Part shown: piece by piece, positions 13,261 through 58,878 of the stretch
Position numbering within the stretch: position 1 is the stretch's first letter
How the letters are laid out: every line of letters starts with the position of its first letter
Assembly: GCA_903900705.1 (NCBI GenBank)
Contig: CAIUOG010000179.1
Span: 1-64,000, forward strand
Direction of reading: 5' to 3'
Origin: an uncultured Acidobacteriia bacterium
GTDB lineage: Bacteria; Acidobacteriota; Terriglobia; Bryobacterales; Bryobacteraceae
DNA length: 64,000 nt
The notes under the pieces: generated by a model
Seen by the model: the letters and a program-made list of their open reading frames with translations, nothing else
Databases searched by the model: none
What the model was told of the DNA's origin: nothing
Translations under genes and position numbers: made by a program

Positions 13261-13319
13261 ACCGAATCAATCCGGGACGGGCAGGCGGCAGCAGGATATT
13301 CGCCGAAAAGGCGGCACAG

Positions 13320-14156: not shown

Positions 14157-14174
14157 GGGCGAGGCCTCCCGTTT

Positions 14175-14196: not shown

Positions 14197-14206
14197 CGGG
14201 GCATAT

Positions 14207-15760: not shown

Positions 15761-15764
15761 AACT

Positions 15765-16469: not shown

Positions 16470-16492
16470 GTATTCAGGATACGGTACGGGAG

Positions 16493-17772: not shown

Positions 17773-17826
17773 GCGGTCGGCGCTTTGGAGATGATACCTC
17801 TGTTGCGATGAGAACGGGTAAGGGTG

Positions 17827-17904
17827 GCTGGTGAGAACCAGCACGAGTGGCGGCGAAAAAGCGGGCGCGGCATGCATGATCACTGTCTGAGATACGAGTG
17901 GCGG
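17827..17904. repeat. 11-bp direct repeat and small palindrome upstream of the ECF sigma gene
   Basis: ACGAGTGGCGG occurs at 17843-17853 and again at 17894-17904, exactly 51 bp apart, about five helical turns. A 6-bp inverted repeat with a 4-base spacer (17827-17842) abuts the first copy. The block lies 70-130 bp upstream of the sigma start codon, where an activator or autoregulatory site would be expected. Confidence 0.45.
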
Positions 17905-17945
17905 GGATGATCGGATTTCGAACGAAGATGCCGCGACTTTTTCGC

Positions 17946-17974
17946 TTGACATTCCCGCGCTGTAACTCTATATA
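17946..17974 (+). promoter_or_regulatory. Near-consensus sigma70 promoter of a candidate small RNA
   Basis: TTGACA at 17946-17951 and TATATA at 17969-17974 are separated by exactly 17 bp. It is the best-matching promoter I found in this window. It points away from the sigma gene, into a stretch with no plus-strand gene for more than 3 kb. Confidence 0.75.
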
Positions 17975-17980
17975 TGAATC

Positions 17981-18088
17981 ACACCGCGATTTTTTCGTGA
18001 TCGCGATTTTTCGATTCGGGAGAATCGAGCCAACGAAGTAAACAGTCCGCTGTGTTGTTCGAAAGGCCCCGTTTTACGGGGCCTTTTC
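17981..18088 (+). ncRNA. Candidate intergenic small RNA, about 106 nt, with its own promoter and terminator
   Basis: From the predicted start (~17981) to the terminator the transcript would hold three clear hairpins. Hairpin 1 is CGCGAT/ATCGCG (17985-18005). Hairpin 2 is a perfect 7-bp stem with a GGGA loop (18011-18028). The last is a 10-bp terminator stem (18062-18086). A short AACAG/CTGT(G)TT hairpin may form in the linker. There is no start codon with an ORF of useful length, and both neighbouring genes are on the other strand. This is a structural prediction; I cannot assign it to a known RNA family. Confidence 0.6.
18062..18087. terminator. Terminator serving the candidate small RNA and probably the convergent isomerase operon
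   Basis: AAAGGCCCCG (18062-18071) pairs with CGGGGCCTTT (18077-18086) across a 5-base loop, with a T tract on the right. On the other strand the stem is followed by TTTC, just downstream of the stop codon at 18090. Confidence 0.88.
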
Positions 18089-18089
18089 G

Positions 18090-19043: not shown

Positions 19044-19071
19044 ACGGCTCCTTTGATTCGTTATGGAAGTT

Positions 19072-20010
19072 CTAGACGGCCCGGCGCTTGCGGACTTCAT
19101 CGAGAGTGACGGCGAGGATGATGACGGAGCCGATGATCACCTGCTGCCAGTAGTTCGAGATATTCAGCAGGTCTGCGCCGTTCGAAAGCAGACCCATGAT
19201 GAACGCCCCGATGAGTGTGCCGATGACGCTGCCTTCACCGCCGTTGAGACTGCCGCCGCCGATGACGACGGCGGCGATGGCCTGGAGTTCGTAGCCCTGG
19301 CCGGCGGTGGGCTGGCCGGTCATCAGGCGGGAGGCTTCGATCATGCCGGCGAGGCCGGTGAGAGCGCCGCCGATGGCGTAGACGGCGGTGATGTGGAAGT
19401 CGACGGGGATGCCCGCGTAGACCGACGCGATTTTATTGCTGCCGATGGCGAAGGCGTAGCGGCCGAGGCGGGTGTGTTCGAGAACCACGTGGACGATGAC
19501 GGCGCAGATGACGAGCATCCAGGCGACAAAGGGAATGCCGAGCAGGCTGCCTTCGCCCAGGAATGAGAAGCCGGCGGGGATTTTGTGGACCGGCAGACCG
19601 TTGGAAAAGATGAGGGAAGCGCCGCGGTAGATGCCCAGCGTGCCAAGCGTCACGACGAAGGGCGGGATGCGCAGACGCGTCACGAGAAGGCCGTTCAGGA
19701 AGCCGCAGAGCATGCCGACGGCGATGCCGATGAGGACGCCGACGGCGATGGGGAAACCCCGTTCGAGGGCCATGGTGCCGATGAGTCCGCTGAGGCCGAG
19801 AATGGAGCCGACAGAGAGATCGATGCCGCCGGAGATGATGACGATGGTCATGCCGAGCGCCATGGTGTTAAACACGGCGGTCTGGCGGGCAACGCTGGTG
19901 AGATTGTTCGCCGTGAGGAAGTAGGGCGAGGCAATCGACAGCGCCACAAAGAGAATAATGAGACTGAGAAACGGCAGCAGCCGCTGGAGCATCGCTTTAT
20001 TGATCTTCAT
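19072..20010 (-). CDS. rbsC: Ribose/xylose-type sugar ABC transporter permease
   Basis: Inner-membrane permease of the RbsC/XylH family, 312 residues with about nine hydrophobic segments. Family markers are LTSVARQTAVFNTMALGMT followed by IISGGIDLSVGSILGLSG near the N-terminus, GVLIGIAVGMLCGFLNGLLV, PPFVVTLGTLGIYRG and a C-terminal VIGGGSLNGGEGSVIGTLIG. It lies 15 bp after the ATPase gene. The carbohydrate-binding protein normally encoded in such operons is absent here. The gene symbol denotes family, not proven substrate. Confidence 0.92.
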   Translation of the reverse strand: MKINKAMLQRLLPFLSLIILFVALSIASPYFLTANNLTSVARQTAVFNTMALGMTIVIISGGIDLSVGSILGLSGLIGTMALERGFPIAVGVLIGIAVGMLCGFLNGLLVTRLRIPPFVVTLGTLGIYRGASLIFSNGLPVHKIPAGFSFLGEGSLLGIPFVAWMLVICAVIVHVVLEHTRLGRYAFAIGSNKIASVYAGIPVDFHITAVYAIGGALTGLAGMIEASRLMTGQPTAGQGYELQAIAAVVIGGGSLNGGEGSVIGTLIGAFIMGLLSNGADLLNISNYWQQVIIGSVIILAVTLDEVRKRRAV

Positions 20011-20025
20011 GGGCCTTTGTTATTT

Positions 20026-21516
20026 TCATGCGGCCGTTTCCATGACGGCCAGTTTCATAATCTGTTCCTGCGTGCAGCCGCGCGGCAGTTCGCCGGAGAG
20101 GCGGCCCTGGCGCATGACCAGGATGCGGTCCGCCACATGCATCAGTTCGGGCAGTTCGGAGCTGACCATGAGGATGGCGGCGCCGGCGCGGGCCAGTTCA
20201 CTCATGAGTTCGAAGACTTCCGCTTTGGCGCCGATGTCGATGCCGCGCGTGGGTTCGTCGAAGAGGAAGATGCGCGACTCGCGGAAGAGCCACTTCGCGA
20301 TGACGACCTTCTGCTGATTGCCGCCGCTGAGGGTGCCGGCCAGCTGCGCGGGCGAGGCGGCTTTGAGACGCATTTTGCCGCCGAGTTCGGCGGAGCGCGC
20401 CGTTTCGGATTTGAGATCGAGAAAGCCGAAATTGCTGATGCGTTCCACGTTCGCCATGGTGACGTTGTAGCCGATGGGAAGGCGGAGCGCGAGGCCGGAG
20501 ATCTGCCGGTCTTCCGTGACCAGCGCGATTCCGGACTGCACGGCGTCGCGCGGACTGGTGAGCCGGGCGGGCTTGCCTTCGATGAGGATTTCGCCGGAAT
20601 CGACAGGGTCGACACCGAAGATGGCGCGGCAGAGTTCGGTGCGGCCCGCGCCGATGAGGCCCGCCATACCGGTGATCTCGCCCTGGCGAAGGGTGAGCGA
20701 GATGTTTTTGAGCCTGGAAGCTTCCACCGAAACGTTGCGGACCTCGAGGAGCGGCGCGCCGGGCGTGAGGTGGTCGCGTTGGTAGATCTGCGCGACTTCG
20801 CGGCCCACCATGTGGCGGATGAGCTGGTCTGTGGGGATGTCCGCGAGGTTGCCTGTGTGAACGGCGCCGCCATCGCGCAGGACGGTGACGCGGTCGCCGA
20901 TGACGCGCAGTTCATCCATGCGGTGCGTGATGTAGATGATGCCCATGTTGCGGGCCTTGAGGTCACGCACGATGCGGAAGACCTGCCGGGTTTCAGAATC
21001 GGAAAGCGAGGAAGTGGGTTCGTCGAAGATGAGCAGGCTGGAGCCGTGCTGGATGGCGCGGCAGATTTCCACCATCTGGCGGCCGGCGGGGCTGAGGCGG
21101 TCCACACGCCATTCGGCCTGCAGCGGGAAGCCGTACTGTTCGATGAGGTGGCGGGCCTTTTCCGTGATGGCGCGGCGGTTGACCCAGCCGAAGGAGTTGC
21201 GCTCTTCGCGGCCGAGGAAGATGTTTTCGGCCACGGTCATGTGGGGAGCCAGCAGAGACTCCTGATTGACCATGGCGATGCCGATGGCGGCGGCTTCCGA
21301 CGGACTGCCGAGGAAGACTTCGCTGCCGTTCCAGAGCATTTTGCCGGCGTCCCGGCGGACAATGCCGGCCACGATCTTCATGAGCGTGGATTTACCCGCG
21401 CCGTTTTCGCCCAGCAGAAGATGCACTTCTCCCGCATTGACCGTGAGGTTGCCGCCACGGAGCGCGGTGACGCCGCCAAAGCGTTTTTCAATGTCCTGGA
21501 GTTCGAGGAGTGGCAA
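20026..21516 (-). CDS. rbsA: Ribose/xylose-type sugar ABC transporter ATPase (two nucleotide-binding domains)
   Basis: Cytoplasmic ATPase of the RbsA/XylG/MglA family, 496 residues, with two tandem ABC domains. Domain 1 has Walker A GENGAGKST (near residue 36), a degenerate signature LSPAGRQMVEICRA and Walker B LLIFDEPTSSL. Domain 2 has the usual degenerate P-loop GLIGAGRTELCRA, signature LSGGNQQKVVIAKW and Walker B IFLFDEPTRGIDIG. The start codon appears to be TTG at 21516, because no in-frame ATG or GTG lies closer to the conserved LLELQDIEKRFGGVTAL. First gene of the operon, divergent from the kinase gene with 35 bp between starts. Confidence 0.93.
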   Translation of the reverse strand: MPLLELQDIEKRFGGVTALRGGNLTVNAGEVHLLLGENGAGKSTLMKIVAGIVRRDAGKMLWNGSEVFLGSPSEAAAIGIAMVNQESLLAPHMTVAENIFLGREERNSFGWVNRRAITEKARHLIEQYGFPLQAEWRVDRLSPAGRQMVEICRAIQHGSSLLIFDEPTSSLSDSETRQVFRIVRDLKARNMGIIYITHRMDELRVIGDRVTVLRDGGAVHTGNLADIPTDQLIRHMVGREVAQIYQRDHLTPGAPLLEVRNVSVEASRLKNISLTLRQGEITGMAGLIGAGRTELCRAIFGVDPVDSGEILIEGKPARLTSPRDAVQSGIALVTEDRQISGLALRLPIGYNVTMANVERISNFGFLDLKSETARSAELGGKMRLKAASPAQLAGTLSGGNQQKVVIAKWLFRESRIFLFDEPTRGIDIGAKAEVFELMSELARAGAAILMVSSELPELMHVADRILVMRQGRLSGELPRGCTQEQIMKLAVMETAA

Positions 21517-21551
21517 CGGGGTTAGTTTATCGTAGATGTAAATCGCAACGC

Positions 21552-24494
21552 ATGACGCACAGGTTCACCGACGCACAATGGAAGCGGCTACAGGAACTTT
21601 ACACCGCCGCCAGCGTGCTGGATGAGCCGTTGCGGGACGAGTTTCTGCGGCGGGAATGCGCGGGCGACGCGGCGCTGGAACAGCGTGTGCGGGGCCTGCT
21701 GAATCCCGAGGGGATGACGGCGACGAGCCCGGTGGGCGCGGGGCTTCGGTCGGCGGCGGCGGCGGAACTGGGGCCGATTGCGGGAGACCGCATCGGGCCG
21801 TGGGAAGTAGTGCGGCAACTGGGGCGCGGGGGTATGGGGACCGTGGTGCTGGCGGTCCGCGCGGACGACCAGTACCGGCGGCAGGTGGCGATCAAGCTGA
21901 TCCACGCGCCGCTGGCGGGTCCGGAGATGCTGGCGCGCTTTCGGTCTGAACGGCAGATTCTGGCGAATCTGGACCATCCGAATATTGCGCGGCTGCTGGA
22001 CGGCGGCGCGACACCGCAGGGCATGCCGTACGTGGTGATGGAGTACGTGGATGGCAGGACCATCGACGTCTACTGCGTGGAGCACAGGCTGCCGGTACGG
22101 GCGCGGCTGGAGCTGTTCCGGCAGCTGTGCGACGCGGTGACCTGCGCGCATCGCAATCTGGTGGTGCATCGCGATATCAAGCCGGCGAACGTGCTGGTGA
22201 CGAAGGAGGGCACGGCGAAGCTGCTGGATTTCGGCATTGCGAAGCTGCTGAGCGAGGATGACGGCACTCCGCGAACCGTGGTGCTGACCCAGGTGCATGA
22301 GCGCCTGATGACGCCGGATTACGCGAGCCCGGAGCAGGTGATGGGGCAGGCGATCACGACCGCGACCGACACGTATTCGCTGGGCGTGCTGCTGTATGAG
22401 CTGCTGACCGGCAAGCGCCCGTTTCAGCTGGCGATGACGAGCGCGGTGGAGATGCAGCGGCTGGTCTGCGATACGGAACCGCCGCGGCCGAGCCTGCGGG
22501 CGGCGGGGATCGACCCGGATCTGGACAACATTGTGCTGATGGCGATGCGGAAGGAGGCGTCGCGGCGGTACGGGTCCGTGGAGCAGTTTTCTGACGACAT
22601 CCGGCGGTATCTGGAAGGGTTTCCGGTGCTGGCGCGGGAGGACTCCTGGCGGTACCGGGCGGGCAAGTTCGTGCGCCGGCACCGGCTCGCCGTGGGGGCG
22701 GCTGTCGCGCTGGCGGTGATCATCGTGGGTTTCGCGGCGGGCATGGCCCTGCTGGCGCGCAGAGTGTCCGCGGAACGCGATATCGCGCTGACGGAAAGAC
22801 GCAAGGCGGAGCAGGTGTCACAGTTCCTGATCGATTCGTTCCGGGTGGCGGACCGGAGCGGGCAAAAGGGCCGCACGGTGACGGCGCAGGAGGTGCTGGA
22901 CCGGGGTTCGGAGCGCATCTTCCGGCAGCTCACGGACCAGCCTTCCGTGCGGGCCAAGATGATGAACACGATGGGCGAGGTGTATGAGAGCCTGGGCCTG
23001 TATGACCGCGCGCAGGCGCTGCTGACGAATGCGTTGGCGGTGCGGCGGAAGACGGGCGCGGGCGCGGATGTGGCGGAGAGTCTCTCGTCTTTGGGCGAAC
23101 TGGTGGAGACGCGCGGGGACTACGCGGCGGCGGAGGCTTACTACCGCAATGCGCTGGCAACGCAGAGGCGCATTGCGGGCGACGACAGCGCGGCGGTGGC
23201 GGAGATGCAGGCGCGGCTGGGGACGGTGCTGGGGTTGCGCGCGCAGGTGGCGGACGCGGAACGGCTGCTGCAGGCGTCACTGGCGGCGCGGAAGAAGCTG
23301 TTCGGGCCGAAGAGCGCGCCGGTGGCGGACAGTCTGGCGCGGCTGGGGCGGTTTCGCGGCAGTCAGGAGAAGTTCGCAGAGGCCGAGCCGTATTTCCGTG
23401 AGGCACTGGCGATCCGGAGGACGGCGCCGGGCGCGGATGATCCGGACACGGCGGCGAGCATCAATGATCTGGCATCACTGCTGAATACGCTGGGCAAGGG
23501 CAGTGAAGCGGAGGCGCTGGACGAGGAGGCGCTGGCGCTGCACCGGCGGCTGTACGGGGATTCGCACATCCTTGTGGGCGAAGATCTGGCCACTCTGGCG
23601 GTGCTGCGCTTCAACGCGGGTGACTATCCGGGGGCGATCACGCTGAACCGGCAGGCGATTGAGATCTTCCGGAAGGCGCTGGGTCCGGAGAGTCCGCAGC
23701 TGGCGGATGCGATGACGGAATTGTCGAATGCGCTGCTGCGGATGGGGGTGCTGCCGGAGGCGGAGGCGCAGATCCGGGCGGCGCTGGCGATGTATTCGAA
23801 GATGCTGGGGGAACATCATCCCTCGACCGCGAACGCGGTGCACAACCTGATCAATGTGCTGCATGACAAGGGTGATTTTGCGCAGGCGGAGAAGCTGAGC
23901 CGTGAGCTGGTGGCGTGGCAGCGGAAGACGGATGCGACGAGTCCGGCGCTGGCGTTTAATCTGGCGGGGCTGGGCGGTTTGCAGCGGGCGGCGGGGGATT
24001 TCCGGGGGGCGGACGAGTCGTTTCGCGAGGCGCGGCCTCTGTTCCTGCGCGCCTTTGGCGAGAAGCATCCGATGTATGGGCGGGCGCTGGCGAGCCTGGG
24101 GCAGAACCGGATTGCGCTGGGGGATCTGAAGGGCGCGGAAGAGCTGCTGGGGCAGTCGCTCGCGATCCTGCGGCAGGCGGCGAAGCGGAGTCCGCTGGAT
24201 CTGAGCTATCCGCTGGTGGGGCTGGCCGAGACGTATCTGAAGCAGGGGCGCGCGGCGGAGGCGGAGAAGGCGGCGCGGGAGGCGGTGGAGCTGCGGCGGG
24301 CAACGGTGGTGGCGAATGATGCGCGGCTGGCGATTGCGGAAAGTTTGCTGGGCGGGGCGCTGGCGGCGCTGAAGCGGAATGATGAGGCGCTGGAACTGCT
24401 GGAGCGGAGCCATCGGAATTTGCTGAAGTTGCGGGCGGAGAAATCGCTCCAGGGGGAATTGCGGCGGCTGGAGGATTTTAAGAGGGGGCGGTGA
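21552..24494 (+). CDS. Membrane Ser/Thr protein kinase with C-terminal TPR repeats
   Basis: Eukaryotic-type kinase of the PknB class, 980 residues. Start at ATG 21552 (MTHRFTDAQWKRL). A ~75-residue N-terminal helix region precedes the kinase domain: glycine loop GRGGMGTV (91-98), catalytic Lys115, HRDIKPAN (206-213, Asp208) and DFG (226-228), all intact. A transmembrane segment lies at ~379-402. The outer part is a long array of tetratricopeptide repeats (~440-960, with recurring A-E-AL and LA-LG patterns), a likely protein-interaction sensor. This layout is abundant in Acidobacteriota. It is divergent from the sugar importer, but no functional link can be shown. Confidence 0.95.
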   Translation: MTHRFTDAQWKRLQELYTAASVLDEPLRDEFLRRECAGDAALEQRVRGLLNPEGMTATSPVGAGLRSAAAAELGPIAGDRIGPWEVVRQLGRGGMGTVVLAVRADDQYRRQVAIKLIHAPLAGPEMLARFRSERQILANLDHPNIARLLDGGATPQGMPYVVMEYVDGRTIDVYCVEHRLPVRARLELFRQLCDAVTCAHRNLVVHRDIKPANVLVTKEGTAKLLDFGIAKLLSEDDGTPRTVVLTQVHERLMTPDYASPEQVMGQAITTATDTYSLGVLLYELLTGKRPFQLAMTSAVEMQRLVCDTEPPRPSLRAAGIDPDLDNIVLMAMRKEASRRYGSVEQFSDDIRRYLEGFPVLAREDSWRYRAGKFVRRHRLAVGAAVALAVIIVGFAAGMALLARRVSAERDIALTERRKAEQVSQFLIDSFRVADRSGQKGRTVTAQEVLDRGSERIFRQLTDQPSVRAKMMNTMGEVYESLGLYDRAQALLTNALAVRRKTGAGADVAESLSSLGELVETRGDYAAAEAYYRNALATQRRIAGDDSAAVAEMQARLGTVLGLRAQVADAERLLQASLAARKKLFGPKSAPVADSLARLGRFRGSQEKFAEAEPYFREALAIRRTAPGADDPDTAASINDLASLLNTLGKGSEAEALDEEALALHRRLYGDSHILVGEDLATLAVLRFNAGDYPGAITLNRQAIEIFRKALGPESPQLADAMTELSNALLRMGVLPEAEAQIRAALAMYSKMLGEHHPSTANAVHNLINVLHDKGDFAQAEKLSRELVAWQRKTDATSPALAFNLAGLGGLQRAAGDFRGADESFREARPLFLRAFGEKHPMYGRALASLGQNRIALGDLKGAEELLGQSLAILRQAAKRSPLDLSYPLVGLAETYLKQGRAAEAEKAAREAVELRRATVVANDARLAIAESLLGGALAALKRNDEALELLERSHRNLLKLRAEKSLQGELRRLEDFKRGR

Positions 24495-48424: not shown

Positions 48425-49294
48425 GTGCAGGACCAGATCGCCAGCAGGACGGCTCTCCGCGTTGCCGTGCGCCGGGCGGAACACCAGATTCTCGATGTGC
48501 CCCGGGTATTCGAAGACGCTCTTTCGGTGCGGATTATCGGGCCGGAAGCGGCGGCGAAGATTGTGCCGGGCGTGGTGTCGAGAACGCAGCGCCTTTCGCC
48601 CTCTTTCCGAGCCTACATGGCGGTGCGCAGCCGTTATGCCGAAGATGAACTGGCGGCGGCTGTGGACGCGGGGGTCCGGCAGTATGTGGTGCTGGGCGCG
48701 GGCCTCGACACGTTTGGCTACCGGAATCCTCATGCGGCGGCGGGGCTGCGTGTGTTCGAGGTGGACCATCCGGCGACGCAGGCCTGGAAGCGGGAGCGGC
48801 TGGCGGAGGCCGGCATTCCGATTCCACCGCACACCACACTGGTTCCGGCGAATTTTGAGCAGCACTCGCTGGAAGAAGAACTGCGGCCCACCGGCTTCCG
48901 GTTTGACGAACCGGCGTTTTTCTCGTGGCTGGGCGTAACGCCGTATCTGACGGACCGGGCTTTTGAGCAGACCCTGGCTTTCGTGGCCGCGATGCCCGCG
49001 CCCGGAGGCATAGTTTTCGACTACGCGGTGCCGCGGGAAGGCCTGAATCCGGTGCAACAGAAGGCCTTCGACGCTCTGGCCGAGCGCGTGGCCAATGCGG
49101 GCGAGCCTTTCCAGCTGTTTCTGGACCCCGAAGCGCTGCGGGCGCGGCTTCACTCATTGGGGTTTTCGGGCGTGGAGGATCTGGACTACCTGGCGATGAA
49201 CGCCCGCTACTTCGCGGACCGCACGGATGGCCTCCGCGTGCGGGGGCGTCTGGCGAGGCTGATCAGCGCAACACGATCTCCAGCCCGCCGATAA
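48425..49294 (+). CDS. SAM-dependent methyltransferase (leucine carboxyl methyltransferase type)
   Basis: Class I methyltransferase of the LCM/TIGR00027-like family, 289 residues from GTG 48425. Hallmarks are the N-terminal RTALRVAVRRAEHQ, the RSRYAEDELAAAVDAG helix, motif I YVVLGAGLDTFGYRNP, the acidic VFEVDHPATQAWK and EPAFFSWLGVTPYLT. Members O-methylate small molecules or carboxyl groups, often in secondary metabolism. It overlaps the 3' end of the TonB receptor gene by 32 bp (convergent). It lies just upstream of the carrier-protein cluster, but an involvement there is speculative. Confidence 0.9.
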   Translation: MQDQIASRTALRVAVRRAEHQILDVPRVFEDALSVRIIGPEAAAKIVPGVVSRTQRLSPSFRAYMAVRSRYAEDELAAAVDAGVRQYVVLGAGLDTFGYRNPHAAAGLRVFEVDHPATQAWKRERLAEAGIPIPPHTTLVPANFEQHSLEEELRPTGFRFDEPAFFSWLGVTPYLTDRAFEQTLAFVAAMPAPGGIVFDYAVPREGLNPVQQKAFDALAERVANAGEPFQLFLDPEALRARLHSLGFSGVEDLDYLAMNARYFADRTDGLRVRGRLARLISATRSPARR

Positions 49295-51059
49295 CGCCGC
49301 GCTTCGGCAGCGGAATGTTCGGGATCTCCTGATAGATGGTGCTGGTGATGTTGGTGAGCTGCAGGAACGGCCGGACCCTGCCCTGCGACCACGTGGCGGA
49401 GGCGTCCCAGATCGCGTAGGGGTCTCGATTCAGGCGATCCACCACTCCCAGGCGGGTGCGGGCAATCACGTGATTCGCGATGGCGCCGCGCCACTCCGCG
49501 ACCGCGCTGTGGACCGGGTAGTTGAAGGTGTACTTGCTCTGCAGCACTTCGCCGCCGGCGTTGACGCCATGCAGGGCGGAGAAACTGGCGGAGAGACGCT
49601 GCCCGGCGACGGGTTCCCAGACGGTGGCCGCTTCGACGCCGGTGAAATGCAGTTTGTCGAAATTGGTGGCCTGCCAGACGTCATTCGCCGTGGCGCGAAC
49701 GTAGTCGATGACGTTCGCGTCGCGGCGCTGGAAGACGGTGACGGAGGAGTGCAGGTTCTGCCGCCACCAGGCGTCGAGACCGCCTTCGTAGCTGGTGGCG
49801 CTTTCGGGCTTCAGGTTCGGGTTGCCTTTGTTCGCTGGGTCGGAATAGTAGAGGTCGGTGTAGCTGGGCAGGCGGAAGGCGCGGCTGGCGGAGGCGCGGA
49901 GTTTCAGCTTCTGCGTGAGCCACGCCGCGCCGCTCAGTGAGGGGCTGGTCACGGCCTGGCCGGAGCCGTAGACCTCTTCGCGCAGCCCGGCGGAGAGAGA
50001 GAAGCGGCGGGCGGCGCGGAGGTCGTAAAACGCATAGGCCGCGCCGCGGGTGCGGCTGCGGACGCCGAGGTTGGTGCTCACGATGGACTCGTTGAAGCCT
50101 TCGACGCCGTAGCTGAGCAGGGCGTGCAGCGGAAGCCTGTCGTGCCGGCGCAGGTCGCCCTGCCAGCTATCGAGCAGGTGGCGGTTGGTGTAGATCTGGG
50201 GGGCGTAGCGGAACAGCACGAAGAGGTCGGTGTGGCGGCGGTAAGCAAAGCTGGCTTCGGTGTGGTCGCCCAGATCCTGATGGGCGGAGGCGAACCAGGT
50301 TTTGATGCGCTCCCAGGAGGGGTAAGGCCCATAGAACTGGTCCGCGCCGTAGGGCTTATCGCTGTAAACGAGCAGCAGGCTGGACGCGCCGGCTTTCGAT
50401 TTGAGCGTGGTGAGGGAGCTGAGCGAGAGGTTGCGGTAGTCGCGGTTGGGGGCGAAGCCGCTCGTGAAATCGCGGGCGAGGCTCAGTTGTTCGAACAGGC
50501 GGGAGAAGCCGAAGGAGCCGATGCCGTGCTCCTGGTTCGTCCCGAAGTTCCCGACACCGGTGAGCAGACGTAGTTCGGGCGCTTCGCTCTGGCGGGTGCG
50601 GACGTTGAGGACGCCGCCGATGGCGTCTGAGCCGTAGAGGGCGGAGCCGGAACCTTTGAGGACCTCGATGGTGGAGATGGCTTCGAGCGGCAGGGGCAGG
50701 TCGAGATTGAAGTGGCTGGTTTGTGCGTCGTTGAGACGCATGCCATCGAGCAGGACGAGGGTCTGGCCGTAGGTCGCGCCGCGAATGGAGAGGTCGGCGA
50801 TGAAGCCGCCGGGGGCGCGCTGCTGCAGGTCGAGGGAGGGGTCGAGCCGGAGCAGGCCGAACCAGGAATCGAAGAGGGGACGTTGGGACGCGGGAAGCGG
50901 GAGTTCGGTGACGTCGCGGTCCGCTTCGTCGAGCGGCGTGGGGGCGACGACACCCGTGACCACAACGCTCGAGTGGAGCGGAACTGCCTGTGGCTGTTGG
51001 GTTTGCGGCTGGGCAATCAGAAGTGGCGCCGCTATCAGGAATCCGACGGGGAATCGCAT
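49263..51059 (-). CDS. BtuB-like TonB-dependent receptor
   Basis: Compact outer-membrane receptor, 598 residues, of the vitamin B12/siderophore type and unlike the two giant receptors: there is no carboxypeptidase-regulatory domain. Signal peptide MRFPVGFLIAAPLLIAQP. The plug has SIRGATYGQTLVLLDGMRLN and IEVLKGSGSALYGSDAIGG, which are strongly conserved. The barrel ends GVIGGLEIVLR without the usual terminal aromatic residue. No cobalamin riboswitch fits in the 74-bp gap to the divergent FkbH gene. That divergent arrangement suggests a link to uptake of a compound related to the neighbouring cluster, but the ligand is unknown. Confidence 0.9.
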   Translation of the reverse strand: MRFPVGFLIAAPLLIAQPQTQQPQAVPLHSSVVVTGVVAPTPLDEADRDVTELPLPASQRPLFDSWFGLLRLDPSLDLQQRAPGGFIADLSIRGATYGQTLVLLDGMRLNDAQTSHFNLDLPLPLEAISTIEVLKGSGSALYGSDAIGGVLNVRTRQSEAPELRLLTGVGNFGTNQEHGIGSFGFSRLFEQLSLARDFTSGFAPNRDYRNLSLSSLTTLKSKAGASSLLLVYSDKPYGADQFYGPYPSWERIKTWFASAHQDLGDHTEASFAYRRHTDLFVLFRYAPQIYTNRHLLDSWQGDLRRHDRLPLHALLSYGVEGFNESIVSTNLGVRSRTRGAAYAFYDLRAARRFSLSAGLREEVYGSGQAVTSPSLSGAAWLTQKLKLRASASRAFRLPSYTDLYYSDPANKGNPNLKPESATSYEGGLDAWWRQNLHSSVTVFQRRDANVIDYVRATANDVWQATNFDKLHFTGVEAATVWEPVAGQRLSASFSALHGVNAGGEVLQSKYTFNYPVHSAVAEWRGAIANHVIARTRLGVVDRLNRDPYAIWDASATWSQGRVRPFLQLTNITSTIYQEIPNIPLPKRGVIGGLEIVLR

Positions 51060-51133: not shown

Positions 51134-53071
51134 TTGCCGGACCACAACGGAATCGTCATCGCGGCCAATTTTACGGCTGACCCGATCGCGGAAAGTCTCT
51201 ATTTCTGGATTCGCCAGCTGGGCTGGGCGGACGAGGTGACGTTCGCCCCCTACAACCAGGTCTTCCAGACGCTGCTGGACCCGAACGGCGCTTTTGCCGC
51301 GAATCCGAAGGCGGCGCATGTGGTGCTGCTGCGTGGCGACCGTGCCGCGGACGCGAGGGTGGACACGAGGGTGGACGCGGAGGCACTGCGTGCCGCGATC
51401 CGGAGTTTTGGCAGGCCCGTATTGGTGGCCTGCTGCGAACCGGCAGGCGACTTGCCGGAACCAGCCGCGAATGAGATTCGCCTGAATGGCCTGCTGGCGA
51501 AGTATCCCGTTGGGGATGCGCTGGACCCGCATGCCGAACAACTGGGCGACGTTCCCTATACGCCGCTGTATTTCGCCGCTCTGGGAACCGCCGTGGCGCG
51601 CGCCATCCATGCGCTGCGCGCGCGGCCGTTCAAAGTGATCGCGCTCGATTGCGACAACACGCTGTGGCGCGGCACGTGCGGCGAAGATGGCCCGGAAGGC
51701 GTGATGGTCGATGAGCCACGGCGGCAACTGCAGCGGTTTATGCGGACGCAGCGCGATGCCGGGATGCTGCTCACGCTTGCAAGCAAGAACAATGAGGCGG
51801 ATGTGGAGGAGACGTTCCGGGCGCATCCGGAAATGCCGCTCGCGCCAGGCGACTTCATTGCGCGGCGGGTGAACTGGGAGCCGAAGGCGGTGGGGCTGGC
51901 GGGCGTGGCGGAAGAACTGGCGCTGGGGCTGGACAGCTTCATTCTGGTGGACGACAGCGCGAAGGAAATCGCGGAGATGCGGGCGGCGCTGCCGGAGGTT
52001 TTGGGCCTCGAACTGCCGCACAACGAGGCGCGCATTCCGCATTATCTGGAACACGTGTGGGCCTTCGATCATCTGCAGGTGACGGAGGAAGACCGCCAGC
52101 GAAACGAGTCGTATCTGCAGCAGGTTCGCCGTGGCCGTCTGGAACGGCAGGCGGGGTCGCTTGAAGAATTTCTGCGGGAGCTGAAGGTGGAGATCCATAT
52201 TCAGCCCATGACGGAGGCGCAGGTGGCGCGCGTGGCGCAGCTGACGCAGCGGACGAATCAGATGAACACCACGCTGATCCGGCGGAGCGAGGCGGAAGTT
52301 CGCGAGACGGAGTGCTGGACCGTGGATGTGAGCGACCGGTTCGGGTCGTATGGACTGGTGGGCGCGATTTTTCTGCGCGAGACCGATGACGCGCTGGTGG
52401 TGGATGGTTTCCTGCTGAGCTGCCGCGCGTTGGGACGCGGCGTGGAACACCGGATGATGGAGCGGATTCGGGAACTGGCGGCGGAACGCGGGAAGTCCCG
52501 GGTGGAGGTTCCGGTGGTGGAAGGGCCGCGCAATGCCACGGCGCGCGAGTTTGTGCGGGGTGGGGTGCCGGCGCGGGCCGAAGCAAGAACGCCGGACGAA
52601 AAAACGAAGCCAAACGAGCAAGCCCCGGCGACGGCGACGGCGGTCCGGATCGATTACAACCGCATCGCTCGGGAGCTTTCGCGGCCTTCGCAGATTCTGG
52701 ACGCGGTCCGCGCGGAGAAGCGGACTCTGGCGGCGGAACGCGGCGGTTCGCAGCAGCCCCGCACGGACCTCGAACGCCAACTTGCCGCCGTGTGGGCGGA
52801 GACGCTGCAGGTGGCGAATCCCGGTGTGGAGGAGGACTTTTTCGACCTGGGCGGGCATTCGCTGCTGGCTGTGCAGTTATTCTCCGCCGTCCGGCAGGAA
52901 CTGGGCGTGGAACTTTCCATGGATCTGGTTTACGGCGGGCGGCTGACCATCGCTGGCATGGCTGCGGCGGTGGAACTGGCGCAGGCCGACCCCGAAGAGA
53001 TGGCCCGGTTAATGGCTGAAATCGAAGGCCTTTCCGACGAAGAGCTGCGGGCTCTTCTGGCTGAAGAGTAG
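51134..53071 (+). CDS. FkbH-type glyceryl-loading HAD enzyme fused to a C-terminal peptidyl/acyl carrier protein
   Basis: FkbH proteins take the glyceryl unit from 1,3-bisphosphoglycerate, dephosphorylate it and attach it to a carrier protein as glyceryl-S-ACP. 645 residues from TTG 51134. An N-terminal domain (~1-165) precedes the HAD core with DCDNTLWRGTCGEDGPEG (Asp172, Asp174), LTLASKNNEADV and FILVDDSAKEIAEM, then a FkbH-type C-terminal region (TNQMNTTLIRRSEAEV, DRFGSYGLVGAIF). After a charged linker (~490-535), a carrier domain ends with DLGGHSLLA, Ser576 being the phosphopantetheine site. First gene of a four-gene operon; the next starts 3 bp later. No fkbG/I/K genes for methoxymalonyl formation are present. 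Confidence 0.92.
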   Translation: MPDHNGIVIAANFTADPIAESLYFWIRQLGWADEVTFAPYNQVFQTLLDPNGAFAANPKAAHVVLLRGDRAADARVDTRVDAEALRAAIRSFGRPVLVACCEPAGDLPEPAANEIRLNGLLAKYPVGDALDPHAEQLGDVPYTPLYFAALGTAVARAIHALRARPFKVIALDCDNTLWRGTCGEDGPEGVMVDEPRRQLQRFMRTQRDAGMLLTLASKNNEADVEETFRAHPEMPLAPGDFIARRVNWEPKAVGLAGVAEELALGLDSFILVDDSAKEIAEMRAALPEVLGLELPHNEARIPHYLEHVWAFDHLQVTEEDRQRNESYLQQVRRGRLERQAGSLEEFLRELKVEIHIQPMTEAQVARVAQLTQRTNQMNTTLIRRSEAEVRETECWTVDVSDRFGSYGLVGAIFLRETDDALVVDGFLLSCRALGRGVEHRMMERIRELAAERGKSRVEVPVVEGPRNATAREFVRGGVPARAEARTPDEKTKPNEQAPATATAVRIDYNRIARELSRPSQILDAVRAEKRTLAAERGGSQQPRTDLERQLAAVWAETLQVANPGVEEDFFDLGGHSLLAVQLFSAVRQELGVELSMDLVYGGRLTIAGMAAAVELAQADPEEMARLMAEIEGLSDEELRALLAEE

Positions 53072-53074
53072 CCC

Positions 53075-54271
53075 ATGCGGCTGCTGCTGACCTCAAATGC
53101 CACGTACGCGCCGCCGCGCGGCGGTTCCACGCGCAGCAATCTGGTGTGGCTGCGGCATCTGGCGGGGCAGGGCCACGAGTGCGTGGTGGTAGCGGCGGCC
53201 GAAGAGGACACGCCCGCGCCGGAGCTGACGCGGGACGGCATCCGCTTCCTTTCCGAGCGGGAAGCTTCGGAGCGGCCCGCCGCGCTGGGGCGGCAGATCG
53301 CGGAGTTCCGGCCGGACTGGGTGCTGCTTTCGAGCGAAGATCTGGGGCATACGCTGCTGCGCGAGGCCTTTCGCGGCGCGCCGGGGCGCGTGGTGTATCT
53401 GGCGCACACGCCGCAGTTCTTTCCGTTCGGACCGGAGAGCTGGCATCCCGATCCCGGCGCGTCGAAACTGCTGCGGGAGGCGGCGGCGATTGTCGCCATC
53501 AGCCGGACCGTGGCCGATTACGTGGCGGAGCACCTGGGGAAGACGGCGGCCGTGATCCATCCGCCCATGTATGGCGCGGGGCCGTGGCCGAACCTGGCCA
53601 ATCTGAACGGTGTGGTGACGATGGTGAATCCCTGCGCGGTGAAGGGCCTGCCCGTGTTTCTGCGCCTCGCAGAACGCTTCCCGCTGGTGAGTTTTCACGC
53701 GCTGCGCGGCTGGGGCACAACGGCTGCCGATGAGCGGGAAATGGCCCGGCTGGGGAACATCACGGTGGTGGGAACGGTCGGCAACATCGAAGAGCAGCTG
53801 GCGAAGACGCGGGTGATGCTGATGCCGTCGCTCTGGTTCGAGGGCTTCGGGCTGGTGGTGACGGAGGCGATGCTGCGGGGCATTCCGGTGATTGCGAGCG
53901 ATGCGGGCGGGCTGGTGGAGGCGAAGCTGGGCACGGGCTTCGCGGTGCCGGTTTCGCCGATCCGAAAATACGAAGCCAGATTTGACGACCGCAACATGCC
54001 GGTGGCGGAGGCGCCGCCGCAGGACGTCGGGGCGTGGGATACGGCGCTCAGCAAGCTGCTGAGTGACGATGCGCTGTACTGGCGGGAGTCGGAGGCGGAG
54101 CGGGCGGCGGCGACTCGGTTTGTGGAGTCGCTGGACGCGGGGGATTTCGAGCGCCTGCTGCTGGGGCTGCGGCCCGCGGAGGCGCCGGTGGCCGCGCGGA
54201 AAGCGGACAGCCTGACGCCGGAACAGCGCGCGCTGCTGCTGCGGAAGATGCGGCAGAGGGCTGAGGGATAG
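53075..54271 (+). CDS. GT4-like glycosyltransferase
   Basis: Retaining nucleotide-sugar glycosyltransferase of GT-B fold, 398 residues. N-terminal domain begins LLLTSNATYAPPRGGSTRSN, the usual glycine-rich acceptor loop. The donor-binding half has NPCAVKGLPVFLRLAERFP and the E-x7-E type block WFEGFGLVVTEAMLRGIPV, then ASDAGGLVEAKLG. No signal or membrane segment is seen. It starts 3 bp after the FkbH-carrier gene. It is a paralogue of the N-terminal half of the next gene, sharing the start, the GHECVVV strand and the PPQD-x-G-x-W block, so the pair arose by tandem duplication. Donor and acceptor unknown; the carrier-bound glyceryl unit is a candidate acceptor. Confidence 0.9.
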   Translation: MRLLLTSNATYAPPRGGSTRSNLVWLRHLAGQGHECVVVAAAEEDTPAPELTRDGIRFLSEREASERPAALGRQIAEFRPDWVLLSSEDLGHTLLREAFRGAPGRVVYLAHTPQFFPFGPESWHPDPGASKLLREAAAIVAISRTVADYVAEHLGKTAAVIHPPMYGAGPWPNLANLNGVVTMVNPCAVKGLPVFLRLAERFPLVSFHALRGWGTTAADEREMARLGNITVVGTVGNIEEQLAKTRVMLMPSLWFEGFGLVVTEAMLRGIPVIASDAGGLVEAKLGTGFAVPVSPIRKYEARFDDRNMPVAEAPPQDVGAWDTALSKLLSDDALYWRESEAERAAATRFVESLDAGDFERLLLGLRPAEAPVAARKADSLTPEQRALLLRKMRQRAEG

Positions 54272-54281
54272 GGTTTAGGGG

Positions 54282-56228
54282 ATGCGGATTCTGCTGGCGC
54301 ACAACTCGACGTACTACCCGGCGCACGGCGGGGGCGACCTCTCAAATCGCCTGCTGCTGGAGGCTCTGGCCGCGCGGGGCCATGAGTGCGTGGTGGTTTC
54401 GCGGACGGCTGCGCACGGGGCGGAGGCGCACCGGGAACTGCTGGCGGCCCTGTCGCATCGCGACGTTTCGGCGACGGTGGAAGCGCCTGGAATCGTGCGC
54501 TTCCAGCTGCACGGCGTGGAAGTGCATACGGCGACGGAAACACCGAACCTGCGGGAGTATTTTACGCGGCAGATCGGGGCGTTCCAGCCGGAGATCATTC
54601 TCGGTTCCACGGATGACTCGGCGCAACTGCTGCTGCAGGCGGCGCTGGCTTCCGGCGTGCCGGTGGTTTATCTGGCGCGGGCCACCATCGCGCTGCCGTT
54701 CGGGCCGGATTGCGCGTTCGCGAGTTCGGCGAGGACGGACGCACTGCGGCGGGCCGCGGGGGTGGTGGGCGTGAGCCGGTACGTGGCCGATTACATCCGG
54801 CAATGGAGCGGCATTGAAGCGGCGGCGCTGCCAATTTCATTCATGGGCAGCGGGCCGTTTGCGAACGTGGGGCGGTTCGGCAACGAGTTTGTGACGCTGG
54901 TGAACCCGTGCGTGGTGAAGGGAATCGATCTCTTTACGGCGCTGGCGGACGCGCTGCAGGAGACAAAATTCGCGGCTGTTCCGACGTGGGGCACCAACGA
55001 GGAAGACTTCGCGAAGCTGCGGGCGCGGGGCAACATCACGGTGCTGGAGCCGGTAGATAATATCGACCGGATTCTGGAACGGACGCGGGTTTTGCTGTCA
55101 CCATCCATCTGGGCGGAGGCGCGTTCGCGAATCGTGGTGGAAGCGATGCTGCGCGGCGTGCCGGTGGTGGCGAGCAATACAGGCGGGCTGCCGGAGGCGA
55201 AGCTGGGCGTGCCGTATGTGCTGCCGGTGAACGCGATTGCGCAGTATGCGGGCCGGCTGGACGCGAAGATGGTGCCGGTGGCGGTGACGCCCCCGCAGGA
55301 CCTGGGCCCGTGGGTGGAGGCGGTGCGTCGGCTCACGGAGGACGAGGGCCACTGGCGGGAGATCGCGGCGCAATCGAGAGGCGCGGCGCATGGGTATCTG
55401 GAACAGACGCTGCGGATTGAGCCGTTCGAAGAATTTCTGCGGGAGCGGGTGGGGCGGAAGCCGGGGAAGCCGGTGGCGGTGGTGACGGCGAAACCCGCGC
55501 TGCCCGCCGATAAGAAGCGGCTGCTGGCGCTGCGCCTGCGGGAGCAGTGGGCCACGCCGGCGGAGCTGGATCCGGAGGGCCCGAACCTGCTGTGCTTCCC
55601 CTATGCGGGCGCGGGGCCGACCGTGTATCGGGCATGGCGGGAGAAGCTGCCGTCCTGTGTGGTGCGGTATCCGGCGGGGGCGGAGTCTGTGGCCGCGGTG
55701 GTGGCGGGGCTGATGGAGAGCCTCACGCCGAAGCTGCGGGGGCGGTTCGCGTTCTTCGGGCACAGCATGGGCGCGGGGATTGCGTTTGAGTTTACGCGGG
55801 CGCTTCGGCGGGCGGGGTTGCCGATGCCGGTGGCGCTGCTGATCTCGGCCGCGACCGCGCCGCAGTTCCGGACGAAGGTGAATCCGGACCCGACGGAGGA
55901 GGAACTGCTGGCGTCACTGGCGCGCATTCACGGACCCGGTGTGACCGGGGAGAGTCTGCGGGCGTATATGGCGTGGTTTGAGCCGGATGCCCGGATGCAC
56001 CGTCGCTATTTGTACACCGCGGAAGCGCCGTTCGGGATCCCCATCCGGGCGTATGGCGGGGCGAGGGACGTGGCGGTGCCGCCGGAGCGGCTGGAACCGT
56101 GGCGGGAGCAGACGACGGGCGACTTCCGCCTGCGCCTGTTCGAGGGCGGCCACATGTATATCGACCAGCGGACGGCGGAGTTTTTGCCGGTGCTGAAAGA
56201 GGATCTGGATGAGCTGCTGTACGGTTGA
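54282..56228 (+). CDS. Glycosyltransferase fused to a type II thioesterase
   Basis: 648-residue fusion. Residues ~1-390 are a GT4-like transferase closely related to the preceding gene (start MRILLAHNSTYYPAHGGGD, donor block RSRIVVEAMLRGVPVVASN, but lacking the GFG of its paralogue: WAEARSR instead). Residues ~425-648 are a GrsT-type thioesterase: NLLCFPYAGAGPTVY, GHSMGAGIAFEF with Ser495, GGARDVAVP with Asp596 and EGGHMYID with His624, a complete catalytic triad. Type II thioesterases release or edit acyl groups on carrier proteins, so its fusion to a glycosyltransferase ties the transferase to a carrier-bound substrate. The gene overlaps the PPTase gene by 20 bp. Confidence 0.93.
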   Translation: MRILLAHNSTYYPAHGGGDLSNRLLLEALAARGHECVVVSRTAAHGAEAHRELLAALSHRDVSATVEAPGIVRFQLHGVEVHTATETPNLREYFTRQIGAFQPEIILGSTDDSAQLLLQAALASGVPVVYLARATIALPFGPDCAFASSARTDALRRAAGVVGVSRYVADYIRQWSGIEAAALPISFMGSGPFANVGRFGNEFVTLVNPCVVKGIDLFTALADALQETKFAAVPTWGTNEEDFAKLRARGNITVLEPVDNIDRILERTRVLLSPSIWAEARSRIVVEAMLRGVPVVASNTGGLPEAKLGVPYVLPVNAIAQYAGRLDAKMVPVAVTPPQDLGPWVEAVRRLTEDEGHWREIAAQSRGAAHGYLEQTLRIEPFEEFLRERVGRKPGKPVAVVTAKPALPADKKRLLALRLREQWATPAELDPEGPNLLCFPYAGAGPTVYRAWREKLPSCVVRYPAGAESVAAVVAGLMESLTPKLRGRFAFFGHSMGAGIAFEFTRALRRAGLPMPVALLISAATAPQFRTKVNPDPTEEELLASLARIHGPGVTGESLRAYMAWFEPDARMHRRYLYTAEAPFGIPIRAYGGARDVAVPPERLEPWREQTTGDFRLRLFEGGHMYIDQRTAEFLPVLKEDLDELLYG

Positions 56229-56796
56229 TATCCGGACCTTCGACCTGCGGCTGGACGGGCCGGTGGTGCTGTCGGCGGAGGAGGCGGCGCGGGCGGCGCG
56301 ATTCCTGTTTGAGAAGGACCGGAAGCAGTGGGCGCAGGCTCGGTCGGCGCTGCGGCGGACGCTGGCCGGGTATGTGGGCGCGGCGCCGGAAGCGCTGGAG
56401 TTTGTGTATGGGGAGAACGGCAAGCCGGCGCTGGCGGGGCAGGCGGGCGTGGAATTCAATATTTCCCATGCGGGCGGGTGGGCGATGATTGCGGTGACGC
56501 GCGGGGTACCTGTGGGCTCGCCGGTACCGGTAGGCGTGGATATCGAGGTGATCCGGGAGGATGTGGACATCGCGAAACTGCTCCGGCGGCTGGGAGAGAC
56601 GGAGTTGAGCGGGGGGACGGTCGACCTGTTCCATGTGTGGACCCGGCGGGAGGCGCGAACAAAGGCGATGGGCGGGCAGTTGATGATGGCGACGGAGGGG
56701 GACGTGCGGGTGGTGGATGTGCGGGCTCCGGAGGGATTTGCGGGGTCTGTGGCGCTGGTGGGGGCAGACCCGGAACCGCGATATTGCGGGGAGTGA
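56209..56796 (+). CDS. Sfp-like 4'-phosphopantetheinyl transferase
   Basis: Transfers phosphopantetheine from CoA to carrier proteins, here presumably to Ser576 of the FkbH-carrier fusion. 195 residues, short for the Sfp group. Motifs are YGENGKPAL (P1), FNISHAGGWAMIAV, VGVDIEVIRED with Asp111 and Glu113 for Mg2+, and FHVWTRREARTKAMG, where the usual WxxKEAxxKA has Arg147 for the first Lys while Glu148 and Lys152 remain. The C-terminal region is abbreviated. It overlaps the preceding gene by 20 bp, so it belongs to the operon and is probably dedicated to it. Confidence 0.93.
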   Translation: MSCCTVDIRTFDLRLDGPVVLSAEEAARAARFLFEKDRKQWAQARSALRRTLAGYVGAAPEALEFVYGENGKPALAGQAGVEFNISHAGGWAMIAVTRGVPVGSPVPVGVDIEVIREDVDIAKLLRRLGETELSGGTVDLFHVWTRREARTKAMGGQLMMATEGDVRVVDVRAPEGFAGSVALVGADPEPRYCGE

Positions 56797-57360: not shown

Positions 57361-58878
57361 ATGTCGAACATCACTCCCTCAGGGGGAACGGACGCGCCTG
57401 AAGGTTCGCCTTCGGAACGGCAGAAACTGGACCGCGCCTTTGTCGGCGGGGTAGCCTGGACTGCCGGAGCAAAATGGCTATCGCAGCTCATCTCGTGGCC
57501 ATCGGTCCTGATCACGGCACGATTGCTTTCACCCGCCGATTTCGGTCTGGTGGAAATGGCCGGTTTCTATTTTATCGTTACCAATATAATGGCGGAGTTC
57601 GGCATCGGGATGGCTGTGCTCCAGATGCGGGAACTGGATATGGCCGTTACCGCGCAACTCAACACTGTTTCGGCTATGTCCGGGTTGGCGGCATTCCTGA
57701 TTTCGGTGGCGGCTGCGCCGCTGATCGCGTCGTTTTTTCGGGCTCCCGCGCTGCACAACCTGGTGATCGTGACCAGCCTTTCCTTTATTCTGACCTCACT
57801 GGAGGCGATCCCGCTGGGTTTGTTGCAGAGGGATATGAACTACAAGCGCCTTTCCGTTGCGGAATCCGTGCAGGCGATCGTAACCGCCATCGTCTCAGTG
57901 GGGTGCGCTTTCGCCGGAATGGGTTATTGGTCGCTGATCGCGGGCAACCTGCTGGGGCGGGGCGCCAATATCGGCCTCGCGATCTACTGGCGTCCGGCCC
58001 GATTTTCTATTCCCAGGTGGACGGAGATTCGCCAGCCCCTGCGGTTCGGCATGCAAATCGCGGTCCAGCGGGTTACGGGAAGCATTAACGGACTGTCGGA
58101 CGTAATGGTGATCGGACGAACCCTGGGCCAGGCGCAGGTCGGGGCGTACCGCCTTGCAACGAATCTTGCGAGCACTCCCTCCGAAAAGATTGGCGGGCTC
58201 ATCATGCGGGTGACGGGGCCACTCTTTGCCCGGGTTCAGACCGACAAGGCACTGATGCTCCGCTATTTTCTGATTTTCAGCGAAACGATTGCGATGGCCA
58301 CGTTCCCGCTGCTCTTTGGGCTTGCTTTGGTGGCTCCCGAGGCGGTGCAGTTGCTCCTGGGGCCTAAGTGGGCCGAAGCGTCGGATCCACTCCGGTGGCT
58401 TGCCATCTTTATGTCCGTTCGGACGCTTTCGTATCTCATCAATCAGTTACTTGCCACTCTCCGCCTCACTGCGTTTGGAATGCGCATCTCCATGGTCAAT
58501 TTTATATTGATGCCGATTGTGTTCTACATCGCATCCCGCTGGGGGGTCGGCACGGTCGCGATGTCCTGGCTGGTCATGTCACCCATTACGATTTTGCCGG
58601 CGGCGGTGAAAGTCTTCCGCTCCATTGGATGCAGTGTGGGGCAGTATATTCGGGCGCTGGAACCCGGTATTGTGGGCTCAGCCGTCATGCTGGCGGCCGT
58701 TTGCGCCCTCCGACGCTGGGTAACCCTGCGAGGCTGGACCGGTTTGAGCGCTGAGGTCGCGGTGGGCGGCCTGGCCTATTGTGGCGTTCTGGGCGGCCTT
58801 TACCTGCACCGCCTGTCCAGGTTCTTTCGGTTTTTCCGCGATCTTCGGAGTCGCGGGGGCGAATCTGTGGCCGCCTGA
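57361..58878 (+). CDS. Wzx-type oligosaccharide flippase (polysaccharide biosynthesis protein)
   Basis: Integral membrane protein of the MOP superfamily, 505 residues with about 12-14 hydrophobic helices, resembling WzxC/lipopolysaccharide exporters that flip undecaprenyl-linked sugars. Family-typical blocks are AFVGGVAWTAGAKWLSQLIS near the start, FGLVEMAGFYFIVTNIMAEF, RFGMQIAVQRVTGSINGLSD, VMVIGRTLGQAQVGAYRLA and APEAVQLLLGPKWAEA. It starts from its own promoter downstream of tRNA-Ser. Proximity to the glycosyltransferase/carrier operon hints at export of a related glycoside but is not proof. No polymerase or Wzz gene is near. Confidence 0.9.
   Translation: MSNITPSGGTDAPEGSPSERQKLDRAFVGGVAWTAGAKWLSQLISWPSVLITARLLSPADFGLVEMAGFYFIVTNIMAEFGIGMAVLQMRELDMAVTAQLNTVSAMSGLAAFLISVAAAPLIASFFRAPALHNLVIVTSLSFILTSLEAIPLGLLQRDMNYKRLSVAESVQAIVTAIVSVGCAFAGMGYWSLIAGNLLGRGANIGLAIYWRPARFSIPRWTEIRQPLRFGMQIAVQRVTGSINGLSDVMVIGRTLGQAQVGAYRLATNLASTPSEKIGGLIMRVTGPLFARVQTDKALMLRYFLIFSETIAMATFPLLFGLALVAPEAVQLLLGPKWAEASDPLRWLAIFMSVRTLSYLINQLLATLRLTAFGMRISMVNFILMPIVFYIASRWGVGTVAMSWLVMSPITILPAAVKVFRSIGCSVGQYIRALEPGIVGSAVMLAAVCALRRWVTLRGWTGLSAEVAVGGLAYCGVLGGLYLHRLSRFFRFFRDLRSRGGESVAA

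Follow-up and report, generated by a model that had tools for sequence, protein, structure and literature searches.

Most of what is known about FkbH enzymes comes from the assembly lines of polyketides and peptides. According to excerpts of three reports (PMC8949500, PMC13122637, PMC7489565), the FkbH domains of nonribosomal peptide synthetase (NRPS) pathways and of tetronate pathways take up the glyceryl unit of 1,3-bisphosphoglycerate and load it. We analysed 64,000 nucleotides (the window) of contig CAIUOG010000179.1, assembly GCA_903900705.1, from an uncultured bacterium of the Bryobacteraceae, in which an FkbH-carrier protein is encoded directly before two glycosyltransferases (GTs; GTa and GTb), the second of them fused to a thioesterase (TE). 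Our preferred reading, to which we assign a probability of about one half, is that these three genes form a thiotemplated glycoside cassette derived from NRPS parts, in which a glyceryl unit would be loaded, glycosylated on the carrier and released by the TE.

One point of comparison is vioprolide, with its loading-module protein VioA. In an excerpt of PMC10099666, fatty acyl-AMP ligase (FAAL), acyl carrier protein (ACP), condensation (C), FkbH and carrier (T) domains make up, in this order, the first modules of corramycin (ComK) and vioprolide, and, with an excerpt of PMC8949500 also bearing on this, a C domain in vioprolide esterifies glycerate with a fatty acid. The window shares with these systems an FkbH domain followed by an NRPS-type carrier in one protein, and the whole FAAL-ACP-C-FkbH-T order is found in three relatives. 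The window protein itself, however, has no FAAL, ACP or ester-forming C domain, and it is followed by two GTs and a TE, with no downstream NRPS modules. Suomilide is similar in that an FkbH-like domain was proposed to load glycerate on a peptidyl carrier protein (PCP) and a GT belongs to the pathway, but there the NRPS is a full one and the GT was proposed to act after release of the tetrapeptide (excerpt of PMC13122637). In the tetronate operon, as far as an excerpt of PMC7489565 covers it (tetromadurin Mad7/Mad8 and kin), a separate ACP stands beside FabH-like, acyltransferase and dehydratase proteins. None of these is encoded in the block described here. The GpgS/GpgP route to glycosylated glycerate uses free phosphoglycerate, a GT81 enzyme and a phosphatase. 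In contrast to this GT81-based route, the window GTs match GT4-type Pfam models, GTa folds like a GT4 enzyme, and the pathway is predicted to be carrier-based. The likeness to the glucosylglycerate/diglucosylglycerate route, which starts methylglucose lipopolysaccharide (MGLP) synthesis in the excerpt of PMC4555173, lies in the glycosylated glycerate that we predict for the cassette.

The cassette and its proteins

Four open reading frames (ORFs) on the plus strand make up the block, with spacings of 3 bp and 10 bp and then an overlap of 20 bp; the second GT and the TE are a single fused protein, encoded by the third ORF. A preliminary description of this DNA had given the same layout, which the coordinates bore out, and its domain assignments (FkbH, carrier, two GTs, thioesterase and phosphopantetheinyl transferase, PPTase) agreed with the Pfam/NCBIfam matches. 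The features are as follows.

51134..53071, plus strand: FkbH-carrier protein, 645 aa (TIGR01686 275.5 bits, PF00550 51.4 bits)
51632..52558, plus strand: FkbH domain, a HAD phosphatase and a GNAT-like part, residues 167-475
52778..52972, plus strand: NRPS-type carrier domain (PF00550, residues 549-613) with attachment serine GGHS576
52991..53068, plus strand: C-terminal two-helix tail of the FkbH-carrier, EIEGLSDEELRALL type (tail hidden Markov model, HMM; helices 620-631 and 635-644 in the structural model)
53075..54271, plus strand: GTa, a GT4 glycosyltransferase (GT-B fold, E256-x7-E264)
54212..54268, plus strand: C-terminal tail of GTa, LTPEQRALLLRKMRQR (tail HMM), resembling a peptide found N-terminally in some NRPS proteins whose first domain is C
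54282..56228, plus strand: GTb-TE, a GT4 enzyme fused to a type-II thioesterase (GT4 and PF00975 matches)
55500..55544, plus strand: LPADKKRLLALRLRE, the linker that joins GTb to the TE; by eye it resembles the GTa tail
55584..56174, plus strand: thioesterase domain (PF00975 94.9 bits; GHSMG with S495, and H624)
56209..56796, plus strand: Sfp/HetI-like PPTase, 195 aa, a resident gene of the genus

We found that the conserved unit consists of three tightly coupled genes (FkbH-carrier, GTa and GTb-TE), since the flanking genes vary between genera. The preliminary description had counted four genes; the PPTase fell outside the unit, with a match in 15/15 genomes of the genus whether or not they carried the cassette. 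A scan of named genomes returned 132 relatives, and we retained the best 80 of these. The counts were made by tblastn because a simple gene caller missed genes, such as the PPTase of G024. Among loci with more than 3.6 kb of upstream room, an FkbH-carrier preceded GTb-TE in 64/66 and a GTa match was present in 63/66 (GTa being tallied anywhere in the locus), so that the coupling observed is not due to chance. With ORF starts chosen by a simple rule, FkbH and GTa were -16 to +6 bp apart in 57 of 65 loci, and 20 of 70 loci encoded GTa fused to GTb-TE. A promoter and terminator scan gave nothing above chance.

The cassette recurred within the family. GTb-TE had a match in 93/200 genomes of the order (E <= 1e-20), all 93 belonging to the family of the window, while among 396 genomes of the phylum, few of which were of this family, a threshold of 1e-60 was passed only by the own genome and two GT-only matches. 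The best 80 relatives were nearly all metagenome-assembled genomes of Acidobacteriota, many of them named Bryobacterales, Bryobacteraceae or Solibacter; from these record names we take the family of the cassette to be Bryobacteraceae. Three records labelled Arcobacter, Nevskia soli and Phycisphaerales (L123, L157 and L158) hold Bryobacterales-like cassette genes and are probably misbinned contigs. Among the matches listed in a search of mostly open-access literature, no title or abstract dealt with an FkbH-GT-GT-TE cassette or with FkbH proteins in Bryobacteraceae. We rate the enzyme families and the loading step as already known, and their combination free of an assembly line as new.

The FkbH domain scored well above its curated cut-off (TIGR01686, 275.5 versus 146.65 bits), and the TTG start of the protein aligned with the ATG of near relatives. 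In an AlphaFold model (pLDDT 85.5), which agreed with Pfam/NCBIfam, the HAD part was BF1531-like and stood together with a GNAT-like domain and a peptidyl carrier; the Foldseek matches were BF1531 (3slr), MDP-1, GNAT and PCP. In alignments of 22 and 32 sequences, D172, D174, T176 and C430 (SCR motif) of the FkbH domain and S576 of the carrier were invariant. The cysteine of FkbH is the acyl-accepting residue. Loading of glyceryl on the carrier is a supported prediction, backed by family membership and by the fused FAAL-ACP-C-FkbH-carrier relatives. The genes for methoxymalonyl-ACP supply (two dehydrogenases and an O-methyltransferase) were absent from the block, as the preliminary description had stated.

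Similarly, the catalytic residues of the other two proteins were conserved. In GTa, E256 did not vary in either of two alignments (16 and 32 sequences) and E264 hardly varied; E279 and E287 of GTb, together with S495 and H624 of the TE, were invariant in 16 aligned sequences. The nearest folds to the GTa model (pLDDT 92.5) were MshA, sucrose-phosphate synthase, BshA and PimA. A sequence search of the PDB with GTa gave no match at 1e-8, and as to specificity, profile and fold searches of the GTs returned only generic GT4 relatives (BshA, MshA, PimA). The TE domain was of the RifR type (RifR, 209 bits by profile). It resembles the type-II thioesterases (RifR, RedJ, SrfAD and YbtT) in the RifR profile match and the invariant Ser/His motifs; those enzymes are separate proteins, whereas the window TE is fused to the C-terminus of a GT4 enzyme.

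Assembly lines: co-occurrence and ancestry

No ketosynthase (KS), adenylation (A) or C domain was detected in the four proteins with Pfam/NCBIfam, in line with the preliminary description. Moreover, the own genome, which is 99.87% complete, had no match to PF00668 (condensation) or PF23024 (FAAL) at E <= 0.001. We looked for co-occurrence with assembly lines in the 200 genomes of the order, the four scans being taken to cover the same genomes by their handles. A cassette genome was defined by GTb-TE alone, with a match at E <= 1e-100. This left 82 of the 93 matching genomes after removal of 11: G165 (GT inside an NRPS), G045 (TE only), G174 (partial) and eight weak matches (G087, G120, G124, G128, G136, G150, G186 and G192). 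With kinship ignored throughout, condensation domains (PF00668) were found in 29/82 cassette genomes versus 30/118 others (Fisher p = 0.16), type I KS-AT proteins (TIGR02813, which at 1e-80 catches KS-AT proteins generally) in 18/82 versus 32/118 (p = 0.51), and polyketide synthase (PKS) dehydratases (PF14765) in 23/82 versus 30/118 (p = 0.75). All three markers were absent from 43 of the 82 cassette genomes, including G039 and G049, which are one contig each. A dependence of the cassette on PKS or NRPS genes found no support, as none of the three markers was associated with it over the 200 genomes. The preliminary description had named a consistently co-occurring PKS or NRPS gene set as the finding that would count against a stand-alone route, and none emerged from these genomes. 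It had also suggested searching genomes for the block to learn whether it is conserved in the absence of such genes: the three-gene cassette recurs without them, and the PPTase does not belong to what recurs. A PfaA-like multidomain synthase with 4 tandem carrier domains is encoded elsewhere in the own genome (G000), on contig C64 at about 12400-23100 (L002, L004, L005, L014-L017).

The claim that the block is free of any assembly-line module stood for the own genome and for most loci examined. It failed where a C domain is fused to the FkbH-carrier, as in 4 or more of the 66 loci with enough upstream sequence. In three of these (G053, G055 and G160), the FkbH-carrier has an N-terminal extension in which AMP-binding and DIP2-like (FAAL-type) domains are followed by a carrier and a condensation domain, and the resulting FAAL-ACP-C-FkbH-carrier stands before the same GT genes. 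In the fourth (G116), C-FkbH-carrier is visible and the contig end cuts off the rest. We built a tree from 63 cassette FkbH rows, the window included, and 6 outgroups, leaving out L110 (internal stop) and FkbH ORFs of partial length. The four fused proteins formed one clade (SH-aLRT 99) nested among the unfused ones.

GTs of the same family also occur as the N-terminal domain of NRPS proteins, in G165 (L068:304-5781; GT-C-A-T-TE) and in G250 (L079:8169-17060; GT with two C, two A, two T and one TE domain). In both, a peptide like the GTa tail joins the GT4 domain to a condensation domain. With an HMM of 49 GTa tails, ten NRPS loci gave 4 matches, each a short distance ahead of a C domain, and reversed decoys gave 0. 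Two matches lay in the GT-NRPS fusions, and the two independent ones lay at the N-termini of NRPS proteins that start with a C domain (L068, L212). A crude regular expression for the GTa tail matched in 44/68, with fused proteins among the misses. The corresponding HMM of 64 FkbH tails gave 2 matches, at most 9 residues from megasynthase C-termini and both in one cluster (G186), with 0 in reversed decoys. Judged by sequence, the cassette is built from NRPS and other assembly-line parts. Terminal peptides of this sort are known docking or linker regions, and for this reason contact between the GTs and the FkbH-carrier may be made through their tails, a docking role suggested by few matches.

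Proposed pathway and alternatives

We propose the following pathway. The PPTase, encoded next door and present throughout the genus, would arm the carrier. The FkbH domain would take the C3 unit of 1,3-bisphosphoglycerate, dephosphorylate it and transfer the resulting D-glyceryl to the carrier domain of the same protein. The two GTs, which their NRPS-type tails may guide, would then add sugars to the hydroxyls of the carrier-bound glyceryl, either one each or sequentially; since the set contains no chain-extending enzyme, these hydroxyls are plausible acceptors for two GT4 enzymes. Finally, the TE fused to GTb would hydrolyse the thioester to give mono- or diglycosyl-glycerate, or would clear misloaded carriers, and a release or proofreading step is plausible for a RifR-like TE joined to the second GT. 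In the nested fused clade, the FAAL-ACP-condensation module would also acylate the glyceryl, yielding a glycolipid. Gene order, domains, conserved motifs, the missing association with NRPS/PKS genes and the resemblances of fusions and tails are observed; the chemistry of each step in this protein set is inferred, as are the sugars, the sequence in which they are added and the product.

A broader and more tentative proposal, which we hold at somewhat less than even odds, is that the cassette is a carrier-templated glycoside synthase: the Bryobacteraceae would have made a glyceryl-loading NRPS/PKS starter module free-standing, and would use it to attach sugars to a thioester-bound C3 acid, with release by the TE fused to the last GT, so as to make glycosyl-glycerates, or their lipids where FAAL-ACP-C is present, with no chain extension. 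If this is true, carrier-protein chemistry serves to build small glycosides in abundant, poorly cultured soil bacteria. The cassette is small enough to be rebuilt in vitro from three proteins and a PPTase, and the fused FAAL-ACP-C clade, for which a lipid form of the product is predicted, lends itself to comparison.

Several observations weigh against the carrier-bound glycosylation pathway and its NRPS origin. The GTs could act on a free sugar or on a released product and not on the carrier-bound unit, and the usual task of RifR-like type-II thioesterases is editing, not release. In the neighbourhoods examined, the cassette had no consistent link to an exporter or to a sugar-nucleotide gene. 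The tail matches were short and few: the test set held about 35-39 condensation domains by motif count, most without a preceding GTa-tail-like peptide; two of the four GTa-tail matches represent the same family's own linker, because they lie inside GT-NRPS fusions; and the FkbH-tail matches were confined to one gene cluster. The root of the FkbH tree was weak (support 69) with long outgroup branches, so the tree does not settle whether FAAL-ACP-C was gained or lost.

Other readings were weighed against the proposed pathway. The product could be a lipid, namely an acyl-glyceryl glycoside, with a fatty acyl group drawn from fatty acid synthesis and brought to the glyceryl-carrier or to the released glycoside via an enzyme encoded elsewhere, and in cis by FAAL-ACP-C in the fused clade. 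This would suit the extended proteins that precede the same GT genes in G053, G055 and G160 and the C-FkbH-carrier of G116, and the same FAAL-ACP-C-FkbH-T order makes acyl-glycerate in vioprolide, according to excerpts of PMC8949500 and PMC10099666. We nevertheless consider it unlikely: neither a condensation nor a FAAL domain is matched in the own genome, none of the four ORFs is an acyltransferase gene, and most cassettes lack the module, which is present in 4/66. It is less probable still that glyceryl is a decoration, moved by the TE or an outside acyltransferase to a sugar built by the GTs for a surface glycan that a Wzx-type flippase would export. A MOP flippase (57361-58878) does adjoin the block, as does a Wzt-like ABC ATPase in G101. 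The TE, however, is of the RifR type, no polysaccharide cluster surrounds the block among the flanking proteins scanned, many other neighbours examined are housekeeping genes (ispD, NDK, sucCD), and no flippase recurs, the adjacent gene in 19/80 loci encoding a major facilitator superfamily (MFS) protein.

We give marginally less credit again to the cassette being a loading or tailoring station that serves, in trans, a PKS or NRPS encoded elsewhere, such as the PfaA-like synthase on contig C64. That synthase of the own genome, the docking-like tails and the related GTs that are part of NRPSs in two genomes are consistent with such a role, but the lack of co-occurrence over the 200 genomes (p 0.16, 0.51 and 0.75, with kinship ignored) and the 43/82 cassette genomes devoid of all three markers, the one-contig G039 and G049 among them, argue against it. 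Lastly, it is very improbable that the cassette now lacks a function and is decaying as the relic of a former NRPS cluster. Although the TE part alone is left between TonB and the PPTase in G045, and the GTa tail resembles a peptide preceding condensation domains in a genome that has none, gene order is kept over the family, and in alignments of 16-32 sequences, which share 42-64% identity with the window proteins, the catalytic residues vary little or not at all.

The resident PPTase and neighbouring genes

Two further genes border the block:

49263..51059, minus strand: TonB-dependent receptor, which in the genus borders the cassette site on the left and is not itself a cassette gene
57361..58878, plus strand: MOP/Wzx-type flippase, a possible exporter

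The PPTase was above the Pfam cut-off for PF22624, below that for PF01648, and far below the NCBIfam HetI cut-off. At E <= 0.001, PF01648 gave no PPTase match in the own genome, the PPTase of the block included, and is therefore too weak here for counting PPTases. With the protein itself (P0004) as the query, the own genome yielded only P0004, and this compact 195-aa enzyme may be the sole PPTase of the genome.

P0004 also had a match in 15/15 genomes of the genus. In 7 of them (G087, G159, G078, G064, G079, G100 and G131), TonB and PPTase stood back to back without a cassette, whereas in G000 and G024 the three cassette genes sat between them. In G101 the cassette adjoined TonB and the PPTase was on a different contig; in 4 genomes of the genus TonB was not beside the PPTase within the fetched stretch. 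These layouts indicated that, in this genus, the three genes are gained or lost together next to a PPTase that is resident, and the latter was rejected as a member of the cassette. The four-gene block is thus partly an accident of position. The PPTase probably has a general role and may well arm the carrier. Across the locus set, a PPTase lay within 1.5 kb downstream of the cassette in 17 of the 68 loci with room, one of these matches being weak.

The flippase lies just downstream of the PPTase, and the genes after it have no evident glycan role. It was not found near the cassette in the two relatives of the same genus that carry one (G024 and G101), nor was the methyltransferase (TIGR00027, 48425-49294) that lies beyond the TonB gene of the window. 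A polysaccharide cluster was rejected, the flippase alone pointing to glycans among the flanking proteins scanned. A Wzt-like ABC ATPase adjoined the block in G101, and an MFS gene adjoined the cassette in 19 of the 80 loci (L111, L103, L113 and others); such an adjacent MFS transporter could export the product. Between TonB and PPTase of G045 lies a TE-only ORF of 217 aa (L065:9231-9884) with 57% identity to the window TE, in which GHSMG is kept, and which is either a deletion footprint or an ancestral single gene.

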